Below the pieces are notes generated by a model that saw only the letters and a program-made list of their open reading frames with translations, was not told the DNA's origin and did not search any database. Both the position numbers and the translations under genes were made by a program. Shown piece by piece: positions 21,974 to 30,163 of a stretch of DNA of 64,000 nucleotides. Each line of letters opens with the position of its first letter. The stretch's first letter is position 1. This DNA is from Gemmatimonadota bacterium (GTDB taxonomy: Bacteria; Latescibacterota; UBA2968; UBA8231): contig JABHDC010000253.1 in NCBI GenBank assembly GCA_018673255.1, positions 186,001 through 250,000 on the forward strand. Reading direction: 5' to 3'.

Positions 21974-23728
21974 ATGACTGAATGGGCCGGTGTCGGACTG
22001 CTGCGTGCTGCCAAGAATGGCAATGCTCGCAATGTTCGTCTGATGCTCACTCGCGGCTCCGACGTGAATGCCACGGACGAAGCCGGCGCGACGGCGCTGA
22101 TGCACTCGGCCAACAATGGTCACCTGGAAGCTGTCCAGGCGTTGTTGGAGGTGAGTGCAAATCCTAATCATGCGGATTCGTCGGGGTGGACGGCGCTGCT
22201 GCGTGCGGCTCAGCACGGTCACGCCGATGTGATCGATGCCCTGTTGGCGGCGGAGGCGGACGTCAATGCGCAGGATCGTCTCGGATGGAATGCTTTGTTG
22301 AGGGCATGCCGTGACGGGTCCGTACAGGCCGTAAGGGCACTGCTGGGGGCAGGGTCTGAGTTGGACGCACGAAATGCCGAGGGCAACACGGCACTGATGA
22401 TGGCCGCCGGATCCGGGCACACTGAAGTCGTGGAGTTGCTGCTGGAGGCCGGTGTCGATGTGGATGTACAGAACAAGGCCAAGTTCACGGCCCTCATGTT
22501 TGCTTCACTGCGCGGCCCTGCTGAGCTGGTCTGGCAATTGTTACGCGTCGGGGCGGATGTCTCCCTGGTCGATACCGGTGGCGGGACAGCCCTCATGCTC
22601 GCGGCCAAGCAGGGGCACACGTCAGTGGCGCGTACTCTACTGCGAGCCGGCGCCGATGTGAATGCGAAAGATCGCAATGGCCATACGGCCCTGGCTGTGG
22701 CTGGCAATGAGCGAGTGCGCAAATTGCTGGAGGGTGTAAAGAAGGGGCTCAAGCGCAAGGTCGAGAATGTCGCCAGCGCCACGACGAAACTAGGCGACGC
22801 GGCCAAGTCCGGCAGTGTGCTGGAGATCCAGAAATTGATCCAGTCGGGTGCCGACATTGACGCACCAGACGACACGGGCCGTACGCCGCTGATGCATGCC
22901 ACCTCGAAAGAGGTCGTGCAACTTCTGATCAAGGCGGGTGCCAATCTCGACGCCAAGGATCAGGGGGGGCGGACGGCCCTGATGCACGCGGCTCGCACGG
23001 CCCTCATGCATGCGGCGAATCGTGGTAATCTCGATGTCGTGGAAGCGCTGGTCGAATCGGGAGCCGACGTCAATGGTGGCGATCGTCAGGGCAAGACGGC
23101 GCTCATGTTTGCGGCGGCCAGTGGCCATGTGGATGTGACGAAGATTCTTCTGGATGCTGGCGCCGATCCGGAATCAGAGTTGAAGATGGGGCGGACCGTC
23201 TTGATGTTCGCTGGCAGCGGCGACATCGCGAAAATGCTCATCGACGCCAAGGTCGACGTGAATTCCTGGGACGAGAGTGGTCGGACTGCGCTGATCTATT
23301 CTGCCAATGCCGGTGTCACGACAGCTCTGGTGCAGGCCGGCGCCCAGGTGAATGGAGCGGATGACGAAGGCAATACACCGGTCATGTGCGCTGTCGAAGA
23401 TGGCGACCAGGAGATGTTGCAGGCTCTGCTCGACGCAGATGCCAATGTGAATGCTCGAACGGCGAGTGGCCGCACGGCCCTCCAGTTTGCCTCTGATGCC
23501 GACGTGGTGCGTGTCCTGCTCGAGGCGGGGGCAGATGCCAATGCGGCCGACAACGATGGTCGCACGGCCCTGCTCAATTTCGCTGAAGCGGCCGATGCGG
23601 AGGGAGTCCGAGTCCTGGTGAAGGCCGGGGCGGAGGTGACCGCAACGAATTCCAAGGGCGATACGGCGATGACGCTGGCGACCAAGAGCAACGATCGCGA
23701 TCTGGTGAATGCCCTCAAGGGACAGTGA
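21974..23728 (+). CDS. Ankyrin-repeat protein, about 18 repeats
   Basis: A 584-residue protein made almost only of ankyrin repeats (GxTALMxAAxxGHxxVVxLLLxAGADVNAxD), with no signal peptide. Seven regular 33-residue repeats are followed by a broken one containing the basic linker KKGLKRKVENVASATTK, then ten more. Several second-block repeats are three residues short, lacking the GH turn (for example TPLMHATSKEVVQLLIKAG). Repeat 11 carries a duplicated octapeptide RTALMHAARTALMHAA. Ankyrin proteins bind other proteins; no partner can be inferred. It stands alone between a terminator and a convergent mannosidase. Confidence 0.93.
   Translation: MTEWAGVGLLRAAKNGNARNVRLMLTRGSDVNATDEAGATALMHSANNGHLEAVQALLEVSANPNHADSSGWTALLRAAQHGHADVIDALLAAEADVNAQDRLGWNALLRACRDGSVQAVRALLGAGSELDARNAEGNTALMMAAGSGHTEVVELLLEAGVDVDVQNKAKFTALMFASLRGPAELVWQLLRVGADVSLVDTGGGTALMLAAKQGHTSVARTLLRAGADVNAKDRNGHTALAVAGNERVRKLLEGVKKGLKRKVENVASATTKLGDAAKSGSVLEIQKLIQSGADIDAPDDTGRTPLMHATSKEVVQLLIKAGANLDAKDQGGRTALMHAARTALMHAANRGNLDVVEALVESGADVNGGDRQGKTALMFAAASGHVDVTKILLDAGADPESELKMGRTVLMFAGSGDIAKMLIDAKVDVNSWDESGRTALIYSANAGVTTALVQAGAQVNGADDEGNTPVMCAVEDGDQEMLQALLDADANVNARTASGRTALQFASDADVVRVLLEAGADANAADNDGRTALLNFAEAADAEGVRVLVKAGAEVTATNSKGDTAMTLATKSNDRDLVNALKGQ
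22970..23017 (+). repeat. 24-base tandem duplication inside ankyrin repeat 11
   Basis: Two adjacent 24-base copies (22,970-22,993 and 22,994-23,017) each encode RTALMHAA. They differ at four positions, all of them third-codon, silent changes. The extra eight residues break the normal 33-residue ankyrin spacing. Confidence 0.9.
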
Positions 23729-23749: not shown

Positions 23750-26700
23750 TCAGGTGGGCGTGATCCACAGTGTCTTGATCTCGAAGGGCCGGAAGTAGGT
23801 CTCGACTCGGCGTCGGCTCCTGACGGAGATCTCCTCCATGATCTCATCTTCCAGCATGTTCGTCTCGGCGACCCTCGTCACATCTGCGCCAAAGCGGAGA
23901 CGCGTCCGACGACCAGTGCCTTCGCACTCGAAGAGCCGCAACACGTATCCGCTGCCGTCTTCAGCCCACTTCACCGTATCGATGATGACGTTGTCAGCAT
24001 CCACGCTGACGAGGCTATCCAGATCACTGGCGCCGGGTGCTTCGATCGTGAGCGGTGGAACATTCAGTTCGTAGCCTGGTCGGACCACGGCAGGCCCGCT
24101 GAAGCCACCCTCGTGGGGGAGCAGGGCGTAGGTGAAGGTGTGGCGGCCATCATCTCCGCGGGGATCGGGTCGCAGGCCTGACTTGAGCAGCGTCAGTCGA
24201 GCTTCGGATCCATCGACACTGATCCCATACTTCCCGTCGTTCAGGATGGCGACGCCGAAACCTGTTTCGGACAGATCGGTCCAGTGGTGATTGACGACCT
24301 CAAACTGGGCGCGATCTGCAGGTCGATTGCGATGAGTCGGCCGGAGCACGTGGCCGAACTGAATCTCGTGTCGAGCCGCCTCGACATGCACATCCAACGG
24401 GAAACCCGCCTTCAACAGCATGTGCTGCTCATGCCAGTCGACGACTGTATCAAAGTCGATGCGGGGTGTTGTGCTGTGGACGACGAGGTCCTGTGTCAGT
24501 GTGGATCCCTTGCCGACGGTATAGGTCGATCGAATCCGTAATTGCAGCGGGCCATCGGCCACGATCTCCCGCGATTGCAGCCGGGTGTCCGGCTGCATCT
24601 TGAACTGCTGGTCGAAGTCGATGTCCCAGTTGTCCCATGCGGCAGGCACATCCTCGCCAATCCAGAATGTGTTGAGGACGCCCCCCTTGCTGACCAACTG
24701 CCGGCCACTGGCCTTGTCGAGCAGAGAGCGGATCCGCCCGTGTGCATCGAATCCAACTCTGGCAAAAGGTGTTTCGACACCACGCTCGGTCACCTTGAAG
24801 GGAGAGGGCTCCTTCTTCGTGCGTCCGTTCCTCATCGGCAAGCCGATAGCACCCAACGCGGGCAACGTTACGCCCTGGATGGCGAGCTGACGTTGTCCGG
24901 TGACGGTGGTGATCTGCTGGCTGACCAACCCGTCTCGATCCGGGACCATTCCCGCTGGCACGCCGGTGAGGCAGATCTCGCCCTCCCGGTCCCAACCCAA
25001 GGTGTTGGCGACCAGCAGAGCCGGTGAGCGGTCGCGTCCCTGCCGGGTCGCGGCGGCCAATGAGCCCAGGCCGTCGTTGGTGAGGTCGCGCATCTGTGCC
25101 AGCAGGCGTCCCATCTGCTCGATGGCCTCATCATTCACCTCGGGAATCGAACTGCCAGGCAGGATGTCATGGAACTGATTCACCAGGAAATCAGCCCAGA
25201 GCTGATGCAGGATCGCTGCCGGGTATTTCTTCGGTCGGCGTGCATTCGAGTGCGCCAGTGCAGCCAGAGTCCACACGAACTCCGCATCGTGCAGGGCTTC
25301 TTCGCAACGTCGATTGAGGCGTTTGATCTCGGCGATCGATGTCAGGGTGCCACGATGTAATTCCAGATAGAGTTCGCCCACCCAGCGGGGCAACTGGCCA
25401 CCCTCCGCCTCGATCCCGCGCATGAAGTCGCTGATGCTCGTGTAGGCCGTGCGTGGAACACCTTCCAGATCGCCCACGCGTCGAGCGTATTCCAGCATCT
25501 CGAACTGTGGACCGCCACCACCATCCCCGTAGCCGATTGCGGCAAGGCGACGGTCGGCCGTGACCTTGTGCTGCACGTCCTTCCATTGATCGATGAGGGT
25601 CTTGGGATCGGGAAAGCAGTGGATCTTGTTGAAGTGAGACAGCACCGTCGTGCCATCGATGCCCTGCCACTGGAACGTGTCGTAGGGGAATCTCGTCGTG
25701 TCATTCCAGGCGATCTTCGTCGTGTAGAAGTAGTCGACGCCACTCTTGCGCAGAATCTGCGGCAGCGCTGCAGAGTAGCCGAATACGTCCGGCTGCCAGA
25801 AGGCATCGGCTGTGTAGTCGAAGTGCTGCCGAGTGAACTGCTGGCCGAGCAGGAGCTGACGCACGAAAGCCTCGCCAGACGGGATATTGCAGTCTGGCTC
25901 AACCCACATGGCGCCATTCGGTTCCCAACTGCCATCGGCGGCGGCTGCCTGCATGCGCCTGAAAATGCCGGGATACTCGCGTCGCACGATCTCTGCGTGG
26001 TAGGGAGAACTCTGGACGAAGCGGAACTCAGGATACTGCTCGATGAGATTCAGGGCGCTGGAGAATGTGCGGGCACACTTGCGCTCGGTCTCGGCGATCG
26101 TCCACAACCAGGCCGTATCGATGTGTGAATGGCCGACGATGCCGATGAAGGGTGCGCTGTCACCATTGCGGGCAGAGAGCAAGGGCTGCATCAGAGCCCG
26201 GGCGGCGTGCAATTTCGGCCGCCAGCTGCTTTCTTCGGTTTCGGCTGGCATGGCATCGATCGTCTGCCACACATCGGCGAGTCCCGCCAGAATCCGGCTC
26301 TTGCGCAGCGAGTCCTCGTCCAGTGCCTCGGCCAACTGCAGCAGGGTCTGCAGATCGAAGACGAAGGCCACAACATCCTCGCGTTGCAGGAGGAGTTCGA
26401 ACCCCTCGAAGACGCGGCGATGATCACTCGTGTCGAGTTCGTCAGGCTGGGTCCCGATGCATGGGTGGCCGGCGTGGGCCTCTACGGCGATCTGGTAATT
26501 GCGTCGGGTGTTGCCGCTGCCCGTGAGCATCACCACAGGGTGGTTCGGATCAAAGACGCCACGGTGTTCGCCATCGACGATGAGCAAGCCCTCAGGCGCA
26601 CCGGTTGCGGCACGCAGATACACCTGTTGAGACTGGCATCCGGTGGGCAACTTTGTACGGATACGAAACCAGCCGCTGATCCACGATCCTCCCCATGAAT

Positions 26701-26896
26701 CACCAGATCGCACGCGTCTCCATTTCAGGTCGGAACCTGTGGGAAGCTCACGGAAGTGTTCCTTTGTCTCTGCCATCTCGACACCCTCCAGCTGCTCAAC
26801 GGCGTCGAAGCAGAATGGCGTGTAGCGACGGGCAACGGCTTCCAGTTTGGCCGGGATCTTCTTGTCGTATATGGGATCTGGTATGTGATCTGACAT
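23750..26896 (-). CDS. Alpha-mannosidase, glycoside hydrolase family 38
   Basis: A 1,048-residue GH38 enzyme. The start is ATG 26,896, with AGGA upstream; the longer open frame is not supported by homology. After a substrate-independent N-domain the catalytic domain has GHSHIDTAWLWTIAETER (zinc-binding His and Asp, near residue 255) and FWQPDVFGYSAALPQI with the nucleophile aspartate near residue 367. The middle helical domain and C-terminal beta domains follow. No signal peptide is visible, so it probably acts on mannosides taken into the cell. It is convergent with the ankyrin gene. Confidence 0.95.
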   Translation of the reverse strand: MSDHIPDPIYDKKIPAKLEAVARRYTPFCFDAVEQLEGVEMAETKEHFRELPTGSDLKWRRVRSGDSWGGSWISGWFRIRTKLPTGCQSQQVYLRAATGAPEGLLIVDGEHRGVFDPNHPVVMLTGSGNTRRNYQIAVEAHAGHPCIGTQPDELDTSDHRRVFEGFELLLQREDVVAFVFDLQTLLQLAEALDEDSLRKSRILAGLADVWQTIDAMPAETEESSWRPKLHAARALMQPLLSARNGDSAPFIGIVGHSHIDTAWLWTIAETERKCARTFSSALNLIEQYPEFRFVQSSPYHAEIVRREYPGIFRRMQAAAADGSWEPNGAMWVEPDCNIPSGEAFVRQLLLGQQFTRQHFDYTADAFWQPDVFGYSAALPQILRKSGVDYFYTTKIAWNDTTRFPYDTFQWQGIDGTTVLSHFNKIHCFPDPKTLIDQWKDVQHKVTADRRLAAIGYGDGGGGPQFEMLEYARRVGDLEGVPRTAYTSISDFMRGIEAEGGQLPRWVGELYLELHRGTLTSIAEIKRLNRRCEEALHDAEFVWTLAALAHSNARRPKKYPAAILHQLWADFLVNQFHDILPGSSIPEVNDEAIEQMGRLLAQMRDLTNDGLGSLAAATRQGRDRSPALLVANTLGWDREGEICLTGVPAGMVPDRDGLVSQQITTVTGQRQLAIQGVTLPALGAIGLPMRNGRTKKEPSPFKVTERGVETPFARVGFDAHGRIRSLLDKASGRQLVSKGGVLNTFWIGEDVPAAWDNWDIDFDQQFKMQPDTRLQSREIVADGPLQLRIRSTYTVGKGSTLTQDLVVHSTTPRIDFDTVVDWHEQHMLLKAGFPLDVHVEAARHEIQFGHVLRPTHRNRPADRAQFEVVNHHWTDLSETGFGVAILNDGKYGISVDGSEARLTLLKSGLRPDPRGDDGRHTFTYALLPHEGGFSGPAVVRPGYELNVPPLTIEAPGASDLDSLVSVDADNVIIDTVKWAEDGSGYVLRLFECEGTGRRTRLRFGADVTRVAETNMLEDEIMEEISVRSRRRVETYFRPFEIKTLWITPT

Positions 26897-27080
26897 GAGG
26901 GTCTGCTTCCTGCGAGAGCGGTGGGTAAGATCAGAGGCGCGACCCGAAGATAGGAGAGACCTCAATGCCGGCCAGTTGTCACGAGTCTTTGGTCGCTGCC
27001 CGGTCCATGCGTAGCTTTCATGCATCCCCTCCATCACCGAATCGCAACTGTGGCCACAAGCGGCCAGAAGAGAGGCGACG

Positions 27081-27647
27081 ATGCCCATCATCGACTTCTT
27101 CACCGGCAATCAACGACTTCTGCATCTGCTCGGCGGTTTCGCGGTAGGACTCTTCATCGGCTTCCGCGTCCTTCCTGTGTGGTTTGCCACCACGCCCCCC
27201 GATGAAGGGCAGCAACAGGCATTGCAGGCGGAAGCGGCAGACCTTGAGGAACAGATTGAGCGTGCCGTCGTGGCCCTCGACGTCGTGGACATCGCCGACG
27301 CGAACCTGACCCTCTCCCTCGACCACCGGTTGCGTCGCAGGGGGCAAGCGGTGGTGACAGTGCATCTTCGCAACGACGCCACGACGGATCAGCTCGACGG
27401 CATGGCAACCCTCGTGGCCTCTCTCGTGGAGGGTGTTGCGCCAGGGCAGGTAACACTCATCGATGGCACGGGGCGACAACTCAACAAAAGCTCGATCCAG
27501 GAATACGAGCAGAAGGTCTTCTGGACCGGTATCGCGATCAACATTGCCAAGATTCTGGGAATTCTGGCTGCCCTGATCACGGTGAAGTTCATCATCAGGG
27601 CCGTCGGGCGCTCGGCCGATTCCGAGCAGGATTGCGGAATTGGCTGA
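27081..27647 (+). CDS. Miniature YscJ/FliF-like membrane protein
   Basis: A 188-residue protein with a transmembrane helix at about 14-34 (LLHLLGGFAVGLFIGFRVLP), a periplasmic domain, and a second helix at about 146-170. The middle, residues about 68-135, closely follows the ring-building domain of FliF/SctJ: a basic segment, VVTVHLRNDATTDQLDGMAT, LVASLVEGVAPGQVTLIDG, TGRQLN, equal to the family's 'SVxxxLxPG..LSxxQVxxIxxLVASSVEGLxPxxVTVVDxxGxLL'. It lacks the remaining RBM domains and the FliG-binding tail of real FliF (about 550 residues). No flagellar or type III genes are near. It overlaps the TPR gene by eight bases. Function unknown; a ring or a degenerate remnant are both possible. Confidence 0.7.
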   Translation: MPIIDFFTGNQRLLHLLGGFAVGLFIGFRVLPVWFATTPPDEGQQQALQAEAADLEEQIERAVVALDVVDIADANLTLSLDHRLRRRGQAVVTVHLRNDATTDQLDGMATLVASLVEGVAPGQVTLIDGTGRQLNKSSIQEYEQKVFWTGIAINIAKILGILAALITVKFIIRAVGRSADSEQDCGIG

Positions 27648-28959
27648 ATCTTTCGCAGCTGTCCGGCGCGCCCTGCGCAATCTCTCGCTGGCGATGACGG
27701 TGCTGGCAGTCGTGATCACCCTCATCTCAGGCCCTGATGGCCTGGACGTCCTGTCCCCATTGCGAACGCCCCTGATGCTCGCCAGCATGGTTGGCTGGGT
27801 CGCATATTTCGGGGTGCGATCGGTCCTGAGTGCCCGATCGCAGGGCAGGGGACCGCGGGAAACCCGGACAGTCGAGGGGCCTGCTGAAGAGCTGGTTCAG
27901 AAGGCGACAGCTCTCAGTATCACGCTGCAACCCGACCACGAGCCGGGCGGAACGGCGGAAGGGCTCTACGAAGAGGCAGAGCGGCTCTACGACAGCCATC
28001 AGTATCCGGCGGCGGCAGAGAAGTATGGTGCCGCGGCGGAAGCACGGGCCTCCCTGCCCGCCTATCTGAACTGGGGCGCGGCGCTGATCAACTGCTCCGA
28101 TTTCTCCCAGGCTGAAGAGGTCACGAGCCTTGGACTGCAGATGGCGACGCGGATGAAGCGCAAGGATTTCCGCGCCGCCTGCCTGGCGAATCTGGCCGTG
28201 GCACGCAATCGTCTGGGGCGGATCGATTCTGCGGAGAAGACGTGCGAGGAGGCGCTGGAGCTGTTTCGCATGGTCGGCGACAGTCACGGTCAGGCTGACG
28301 TGACACTGACGCTGGGCAACGTACACGCGCACCGTGGGGAGTACGAGAAGGCAGAATCGGCCTACAAGTCGGCGTTGCAGCGTTTCCAGGCCGTCGGCAA
28401 TGACGTGGGCCAGGCGAATTCCCGTGGAAATATGGGCAATCTCGCCATGCACCAGGAGCAACTGCCTCAGGCCCTGGCGCACCATCGGGCGGCGTTGAAG
28501 TTACATGAACAGGTGGCCAATCCGCTCGGTCGGGCCAATGCACTGGCGAATATCGGGAATGTTCGTTTCCGCATGGGGCGACCGAAGGAAGCGCGGCAGT
28601 CGTATGATGCGGCGCTCGAGATTTACCGCCAGATTGAGGTGCCACTGGGCGAGGCGAGTGTGCTTGGGAATCTCGGCAACGTCCTGTTCAAGAGTGGTGA
28701 GCACGACGAAGCGTTGCAGACCTATGAACGCACGATCGAGATTCATCGACACATCGGCAATGTGCTCGGCCATGCCAATACCCTCACGAATCTGGGCAGT
28801 CTGCTGATGAGGATGGAACGGCGGGCCGAGGCGTTGGAAGCCCTCCACGAGGCGCGCAGGCTCTTCGAGAGTGCCCAGGCGAAGACACGCGGGGCTACGG
28901 CCGCCGCAGCGCTGATCGAGCGCCTGGAGGGCGCCGACAAGGCCAACGGTGATGACTGA
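27640..28959 (+). CDS. Membrane-anchored TPR protein
   Basis: A 439-residue protein with two N-terminal transmembrane helices (about 15-33 and 43-62) and then tetratricopeptide repeats from about residue 105 to 425. Repeats are regular, e.g. ANALANIGNVRFRMGRPKEA, ASVLGNLGNVLFKSGEHDEA and ANTLTNLGSLLMRMERRAEA, with the 40-residue spacing of Kinesin-light-chain-like TPRs. The start is TTG 27,640, eight bases inside the end of the FliF-like gene, which implies coupled translation. It likely scaffolds a complex with the FliF-like partner. No catalytic residues. Confidence 0.85.
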   Translation: MAESFAAVRRALRNLSLAMTVLAVVITLISGPDGLDVLSPLRTPLMLASMVGWVAYFGVRSVLSARSQGRGPRETRTVEGPAEELVQKATALSITLQPDHEPGGTAEGLYEEAERLYDSHQYPAAAEKYGAAAEARASLPAYLNWGAALINCSDFSQAEEVTSLGLQMATRMKRKDFRAACLANLAVARNRLGRIDSAEKTCEEALELFRMVGDSHGQADVTLTLGNVHAHRGEYEKAESAYKSALQRFQAVGNDVGQANSRGNMGNLAMHQEQLPQALAHHRAALKLHEQVANPLGRANALANIGNVRFRMGRPKEARQSYDAALEIYRQIEVPLGEASVLGNLGNVLFKSGEHDEALQTYERTIEIHRHIGNVLGHANTLTNLGSLLMRMERRAEALEALHEARRLFESAQAKTRGATAAAALIERLEGADKANGDD

Positions 28960-29059
28960 ATCTGCTCTCACCGGCAACTGCAACCGTCCGATGACACACG
29001 AGGCGCCACAATGGCGCAACAACAGAACCGTGAACTATGTGCCTGAAAGGGGTGTACGA

Positions 29060-30163
29060 TTGAGAGGAATTGTGCCGAACAGAGTGTGGGGTCTTGTATG
29101 TATCAGCACTGCGATCTGCGCGGTGCTCTGCACTTCGGGTTCGGTTGATGCCCAACTCTACTCCGGTCTCACCTGGGAACAGCGATGGGAGATTGCCGAC
29201 AGTCTCGATCAAGGCAGCCGCCAGGCAGCCAATAGCGGAGATCTGGTCGGTGCGCTCGAGCTGGTGGATGCGGCGATTATAGCGCATCCGTCGCACTATC
29301 GTTCATGGCTGAACCGGTGGACCATGCGCATCCGCCAGGGGCTGCAGACGAATGTGTCCAATGAAGATCTGGCGGCGATGATCCTGGCCGACCAGCCTAA
29401 GATCGAGGCTGGTAATGCGCACGAAGATCAGGTGTACGTGCTCAGTTTTGGCGATACACGGTTGTTCCAATTGACGGGTGACTCGTCCCATGTGAGGCGG
29501 AGAGATCAGCGTCTGGCTACCCACGTGGCAGAGTTCTCCGACACGCCCCGCACATTCGATTTCCAGCTGACCCTGGCGAAATCTGTCGAGTCAGACGGCG
29601 CTGCCCGCACCTACTTCGATGCGGCACAAGGTCAGGCGATCAACTCAAGTCGCCGCAGAGCCTGGAGCCAGGCGGCCATCGAGCGGGGGATCGAGCGTCC
29701 CGAGTTTCTCAGCGACGAGGACGTGCAGGCAACGATCACACAGTGGTATTCGACCTTCGAAGACATTGAGAATGAGACGACGAAGCTGCGGGAAGAGGCG
29801 AATCTCGTCCTGTGGCACGGCCGCCTCTCCGTTGCTCGTGACGACTCGGCGGGTGTCGCCCACCTGGTTGACGCCTATGCCAATCGTCGCAGCAAGCTGG
29901 AACCGTGGGAGACACAACTGCTGGAGCAGGGCTGGAAGGCAGAGGTCCTGCCGCTGGCCATCATGGATGCACGTTACGAGGCCCTGCGGGGCGATCTGGC
30001 GATTATCCAGGGCGATACGTCCTCAGCCACAGACCGATACCGTGCTGCCTGGAAGCACATTGCGCCGATTCTCGAGGACTGGACTCGAGATCGCCAGCTG
30101 TTGTCGGGTGAACACATGGACAGACTGCGCCAGCGTCTCCTGCCTTACGTTCAGCAGCCGTGA
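29060..30163 (+). CDS. Secreted helical-repeat-like protein of unknown function
   Basis: A 367-residue protein that I do not recognise. The start is TTG 29,060 with AAAGGGG seven bases before it, which leaves a good signal peptide (WGLVCISTAICAVLCTSGSVDA, cut before QLYS). An ATG frame begins at 28,949, overlapping the TPR gene, but its codons give a poor signal. The mature part is mostly amphipathic alpha helix, e.g. WEIADSLDQGSRQAANSGDL and LVDAAIIAHPSHYRSWLNRW, which suggests TPR-like hairpins. It is the third gene of the FliF-like/TPR cluster and may be the periplasmic partner. It ends in a GC-rich hairpin. Confidence 0.55.
   Translation: MRGIVPNRVWGLVCISTAICAVLCTSGSVDAQLYSGLTWEQRWEIADSLDQGSRQAANSGDLVGALELVDAAIIAHPSHYRSWLNRWTMRIRQGLQTNVSNEDLAAMILADQPKIEAGNAHEDQVYVLSFGDTRLFQLTGDSSHVRRRDQRLATHVAEFSDTPRTFDFQLTLAKSVESDGAARTYFDAAQGQAINSSRRRAWSQAAIERGIERPEFLSDEDVQATITQWYSTFEDIENETTKLREEANLVLWHGRLSVARDDSAGVAHLVDAYANRRSKLEPWETQLLEQGWKAEVLPLAIMDARYEALRGDLAIIQGDTSSATDRYRAAWKHIAPILEDWTRDRQLLSGEHMDRLRQRLLPYVQQP

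Follow-up and report, generated by a model that had tools for sequence, protein, structure and literature searches.

The C-terminal tail of FliF binds FliG, and SctJ (PrgK, EscJ), the inner-ring protein of the injectisome, combines an RBM1 domain with a lipid anchor at a lipoprotein N-terminus. For Salmonella FliF, it has been described that RBM2 alone forms rings, that RBM1-RBM2 is monomeric and that RBM3 lifts this block (PMC8786727), and a report on the i-loop states that removal of ten residues abolishes flagellation and FlhA assembly, with FliF spots persisting (PMC8092281). In another phylum, FlgV of Helicobacter and Campylobacter is described as a two-helix protein that builds a ring close to where the MS- and C-rings meet and, in models, touches the membrane helices of FliF (PMC10655999). 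Flagellar genes have been reported from Latescibacteria (PMC4454575).

Here, we describe a small relative of FliF, mini-FliF, encoded in a 64,000-nucleotide stretch of Latescibacterota DNA (hereafter the window). The original prediction, made from the letters of this DNA, had proposed a miniature YscJ/FliF-like ring protein in a three-gene membrane cluster, together with a TPR scaffold and a periplasmic partner. Judged from its sequence and a predicted structure, the gene is very probably a FliF-derived paralog that keeps the N-terminal membrane helix, RBM2 and TM2, without RBM1, the RBM3/collar or the long cytoplasmic tail.

Results

A FliF-type domain between two predicted membrane helices

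The mini-FliF gene (27081..27647, + strand) encodes 188 residues and has an ATG start with a GAGG-like ribosome site upstream. Pfam family PF01514 (YscJ_FliF) matches residues 53-135 with an E value of 4.6e-9 and 36.8 bits (gathering cut-off 24.4), with the aligned positions (91-178 of 179) lying in the profile's latter half, and the FliF equivalog TIGR00206 scores 24.9 bits, below its cut-off of 129.75. The best solved structure by sequence is Salmonella FliF (residues 136-224, E 0.0021), and Foldseek placed the fold on residues 125-222 of Salmonella FliF, which is RBM2; the PDB list for this fold is a second look at the same Foldseek matches and shares their source. The domain predicted as YscJ/FliF is therefore confirmed, narrowed from FliF/SctJ generally to the RBM2 of FliF.

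In the AlphaFold2 model (mean pLDDT 84.4), long helices at residues 11-34 and 136-180 flank an alpha-beta-beta-alpha-beta domain, which is the RBM fold, in line with the predicted 188-residue frame in which two membrane helices enclose a domain. N-terminal to residue 42, two helices (3-9 and 11-34) are all that the model shows, the second being the first membrane helix (27111..27182, + strand; hydrophobicity judged by eye). The RBM2 domain spans residues 44-136 (27210..27488, + strand) and is followed by the long helix holding TM2 (27486..27620, + strand), which is common to full-length FliF of the same subclade. The chain ends eight residues past this helix in a short tail (27621..27644, + strand) that contains residue 185, the sole cysteine of the protein, and the long cytoplasmic tail of FliF is absent. 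Of 26 mini-FliFs, 15 have a cysteine among their five C-terminal residues, and in 12 it is the terminal residue. Profile and structure concur in supporting a miniature ring-building protein, and a chance YscJ_FliF match was rejected on that ground; a sequencing artefact was rejected as well, the same protein being present on 16 contigs. No second mini-FliF copy was found in the window.

Lost domains and descent from FliF

No PF08345 (RBM3/collar) match was found among those to mini-FliF up to an E value of 10. The equivalent of the i-loop region, residues 78-90 (27312..27350, + strand), is shortened and rewritten. Between the same anchors, this stretch counts 16 residues in all 22 FliFs that we extracted, most of them with a P-E-x-x-L-F motif; in 26 mini-FliFs it counts 13 residues in 22, four in two and 19 in two, and the motif is absent. 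Because of the Salmonella results on the RBM domains and the i-loop, and reasoning across phyla, a protein of this layout would be expected to form rings unaided and would not be expected to build an export gate.

At two loci (L003 and L004), each encoding a full-length FliF (504 and 506 residues), patterns made from mini-FliF TM2 match the end of that protein, which extends about 55 residues beyond the TM2 helix and is adjoined by other flagellar genes, as judged by eye. A TM2 profile gave 56-87 bits on 12 FliFs of this subclade, 17-28 bits on four further FliFs, and no clear match to those remaining. Computed over 26 mini-FliFs, 11 subclade FliFs and four other FliFs of the phylum, mean TM2 identity is 0.65 between mini-FliF and subclade FliF and 0.39 between mini-FliF and other FliF, compared to 0.61 among mini-FliFs, 0.82 within the subclade FliFs and 0.50 between these and the others. 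For RBM2, the corresponding values are 0.30, 0.27, 0.41, 0.67 and 0.44. A profile of the mini-FliF TM1 matched none of the FliF frames, and no TM1 kinship was found.

In a likelihood tree of the RBM2 and TM2 segments, one branch with a support of 100/100 parts 26 mini-FliFs, the window protein and 25 relatives, from 16 FliFs. This tree is built on 140 columns, its root is not known, and its segments were delimited by profiles made from mini-FliFs; FliF was extracted from 22 of 24 FliF genomes (G015 and G016 were left out as partial), and six of the 22, being without a TM2 segment, are absent from the tree. The root not being known, the derivation from FliF is drawn from the TM2 likeness together with the loss of domains, and not from the tree alone. 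The original prediction had considered a decayed FliF less likely: 'decayed' is indeed wrong for this copy, but with a TM2 identity of 65% the origin lies in FliF after all.

Family and occurrence

In three protein searches, at least about 31 clusters of mini-FliF build (155-199 residues, including that of the window) were present among the matches listed, along with shorter or partial matches; two of these searches scored the 7997 candidates with the most shared words. Each of the other clusters comprises one to 11 contigs, and the one named organism is a Candidatus Latescibacteria MAG. In an alignment of 25 rows, 16 positions are invariant and 12 nearly so, with 24 relatives at 29-61% identity to the window protein. 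Mini-FliF thus represents a protein family and not a single case of FliF decay. Three proteins of 99-112 residues (P0031-P0033) resemble further mini-FliFs that were cut short. For two different mini-FliFs (P0009 and P0011), the longest contig is given as 82,208 bases in each case, so that the two may be copies on one contig. In another protein (P0035, 155 residues), a FliF-type TM2 helix sits inside a different protein with a signal-peptide-like start, an extra hydrophobic helix (by eye) and no Pfam family at E 0.01.

Scanning genome_contigs with the single window protein returned no relative. Two TM2 patterns run against the same collection (84,980 species), a scan blind to small RBM2 proteins without this TM2, returned six loci, whose records carry the names Latescibacterota, Gemmatimonadetes or Gemmatimonadaceae. 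They come from five genomes of a single phylum, taken as Latescibacterota, of which we surveyed 64 genomes. No relatives were present in viral_contigs or, by tblastn, in plasmids, and carriage as mobile-element cargo was rejected for want of such matches. A transposase-like frame (by eye) adjoins the copy in genome G001.

Within the 64 genomes, mini-FliF is intact in G001 and G002. The copy in G003 is broken, its aligned frame being interrupted by two stops and, as judged by eye, shifted over one stretch, and that in G005 has 132 residues and is missing about half of RBM2. G050 holds a TM2-only relic, located on two contig ends that resemble one place, and a second copy in G001 is likewise reduced to TM2. 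These two relics lie at the same place and diverge about as much as their flanks (440/471 and 434/463 identical); the possibility that they are working microproteins was rejected, as their differences are at flank level and one stop differs.

Mini-FliF or a relic is therefore found in five of the 64 genomes, and all five also encode full-length FliF, which is found by PF08345 in 24 of the 64 (hypergeometric 0.006, uncorrected for kinship). The prediction that flagellar genes are lacking fits the window in so far as no FliG relative was found there at E 1e-3, but does not extend to these five genomes. FlhA is present in 25 of the 64 genomes and in four of the five carriers; G005 gave no FlhA match, though it has FliF. 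Seven of the 12 genomes with the subclade TM2 type of FliF have no mini-FliF copy, so flagella do not need it. None of the copies seen lies inside a flagellar operon.

Genes next to mini-FliF

Directly downstream lies a gene for a 439-residue protein (27640..28959, + strand) whose reading frame overlaps that of mini-FliF by 8 bp, and whose predicted TPR identity is borne out by strong family matches. Its orthologs are 77% identical in G003 and 74% in G002. The next gene, which is secreted-looking and matches no Pfam family at its cut-off, has a frame that opens at 28949 (404 residues). Since its relatives in G002 and G003 (about 56% identical) do not align before residue 47 or 56, its start is probably near 29060, at a TTG before a signal-peptide-like stretch, giving a gene at 29060..30163 (+ strand). 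With this start, the overlap between the TPR gene and the third gene would not be real. Upstream are an ankyrin-repeat protein gene (21974..23728, + strand) and a GH38 alpha-mannosidase frame (23750..27109, - strand), the true start of which is probably further in.

The corresponding loci in G002 and G003 have the order ankyrin-TPR-PhyH-like-third gene-ADH, and the ring gene is absent; the stretch missing at this place consists of the mannosidase and mini-FliF. In G002, three bases separate the end of the ankyrin gene (83% identical) from the TPR start; the ankyrin frame of G003 is shortened and continues into the TPR gene. Further downstream, the ADH is 75% and a UxaB-like gene 67-69% identical, and the PhyH-like gene weakly matches the PhyH of the window. 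The mini-FliF of G002 and the broken copy of G003 are on contigs other than that of the TPR locus. A relative of the mannosidase (72% identical) occurs in G005, on a contig other than that of the G005 mini-FliF, and none was found in G003. Either the mannosidase and mini-FliF stretch arrived in the window by insertion or G002 and G003 have lost it, insertion requiring fewer events. The TPR gene and the third gene are part of a different and older locus. The TTG start codon of the TPR gene is the same in G002 and G003, so the 8-bp overlap needs no shared history.

Mini-FliF was found beside none of ten related TPR genes, which are best matches with unequal flanks (one begins 0.76 kb before the gene), and a whole-genome search places none there either. 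Comparing five mini-FliF loci (window, G001, G002, G003 and G005) by tblastx revealed no shared neighbour, only mini-FliF itself and scattered short or repeat matches. The three genes thus stand together in the window alone, and the proposed TPR scaffold and periplasmic partner find no support in these loci. The original prediction had named a lack of joint conservation as grounds for giving it up; this is what we observed for the cluster, but not for the ring protein, which is its own family in one little-known bacterial group and does not travel with its neighbouring genes.

Switch proteins in the same genomes

FliG_C is strongly expanded in this phylum. FliG_C matches, which are not gene counts because some proteins give two and some are short FliG_C-only frames, were obtained in 28 of the 64 genomes. 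They number 19 in G002, 12 in G005, 11 in G050, 10 in G003 and nine in G001, all genomes with mini-FliF or a relic, one to seven in seven other subclade genomes and eight in G030. Carrier genomes are larger as well as rich in FliG_C. Six G002 proteins are FliGs with all three domains, and a 924-residue frame in the same genome (L075:1422-4196, contig G002:C15) combines a complete FliG with FliM and two FliMN_C stretches. Genes for FliG and FliM are adjacent or close at L090 and L091 (G002:C8 and G002:C75), L092 (G050:C63), L093 (G005:C272) and L095 (G058:C122), the last additionally with FliN-like frames (by eye); no FliF match was found on the contigs of these five loci. Four genomes (G023, G057, G062 and G064) have FliG_C matches with neither a PF08345 FliF nor an FlhA match, and look like non-flagellated genomes with switch proteins, or are incomplete MAGs.

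Discussion

We consider it most likely, with a probability of roughly 0.45, that mini-FliF is an accessory of the FliF ring, joined to it via TM2 and helping or limiting MS-ring assembly. It would be an inner-membrane protein whose RBM2 faces the periplasm and, going by the Salmonella domain work, would form a ring or ring segment there; its FliF-like TM2 would lie packed against, or in between, the TM2 helices that FliF contributes to the M-ring. The export gate would not be housed in it, since mini-FliF has a rewritten version of the loop required by FliF for FlhA assembly, or has lost it. Full-length FliF in all five carriers, a TM2 closer to that of subclade FliF than to other FliFs and the modelled FliF contact of FlgV speak for this reading. 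Against an accessory role stand the broken G003 copy, the half-domain of G005, whose genome has FliF but gave no FlhA match, the cut-short P0031-P0033, the seven genomes with the subclade FliF TM2 type but no copy, and the location of all copies seen outside flagellar operons. Moreover, TM2 is slow in FliF too (0.82 within the subclade), so its likeness in mini-FliF may reflect packing rather than contact with FliF.

The main rival, possible though on balance doubtful, is an inner-membrane ring derived from FliF that stands alone, independent of the flagellum and with a partner of its own. This would fit genes that are scattered outside flagellar operons with no shared neighbour in five loci, an i-loop region rewritten in 26 of 26 proteins, an RBM2 only 30% identical to that of subclade FliF, and the reported ability of RBM2 to form rings when RBM1 is missing (PMC8786727); it fits poorly with the presence of FliF in all five genomes that have a copy or relic, with a TM2 that stays close to that of FliF and with the lack of a conserved partner gene. 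The broken, internally deleted and TM2-only copies (G003; G005; G001 and G050), the cut-short P0031-P0033 and the unconserved neighbourhood could also mean that these are FliF fragments of no settled function, which arise, move and decay, the window copy being caught between birth and death. We regard this as unlikely in view of a deep single clade and of the positions conserved across 24 relatives at 29-61% identity (16 invariant, 12 nearly so).

It is very improbable that mini-FliF rings are membrane bases for the extra FliG and FliM proteins, in non-flagellar switch or rotor devices: the five carriers do have the highest FliG_C counts of the 12-genome subclade (9-19 versus 1-7), but their genomes are larger, mini-FliF is without the tail that holds FliG, and G058-G061 have extra FliGs and no mini-FliF. 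Least probable of all is that ring, TPR scaffold and periplasmic partner form one machine encoded by the three genes. Adjacency on one strand and the 8-bp overlap of the first two genes speak for it in the window; the ring gene is missing from all ten TPR loci, the TPR gene follows an ankyrin gene by three bases in G002 and a shortened ankyrin frame in G003, and its TTG start is identical in both.

Mini-FliF appears to be a natural counterpart of a Salmonella laboratory construct, with RBM2 released both from RBM1, which inhibits it, and from RBM3, and with membrane helices added. We found no description of a reduced FliF paralog or an RBM2-only protein in the open-access literature searched. 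As the family suggests, a reduced form of FliF may be retained even without the loop required for the export gate. If mini-FliF forms rings, it would offer a small natural model of inner M-ring formation; should it act on the MS-ring by joining FliF, it would count as a FliF paralog dedicated to that task.

Among known systems, the sporulation channel rings of SpoIIIAG and SpoIIIAH differ in context, as mini-FliF lies not in a spoIIIA setting but next to a mannosidase, a TPR protein and an ADH. FlgV is the closest parallel, in function only, being likewise a small two-helix membrane protein with a proposed FliF contact through membrane helices; its published description mentions no ring-building domain of the kind present in mini-FliF. 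SctJ differs in its RBM1, which mini-FliF does not have, and mini-FliF has no cysteine before residue 185. Compared to FliF (TIGR00206, PF01514 and PF08345), mini-FliF is without RBM1, the RBM3/collar and the long cytoplasmic tail, has a rewritten i-loop region and a TM1 with no detectable match, and is encoded outside the flagellar operon; it shares with FliF the sequence and fold of RBM2, a periplasmic domain between two membrane helices, and the TM2 of one FliF subclade.
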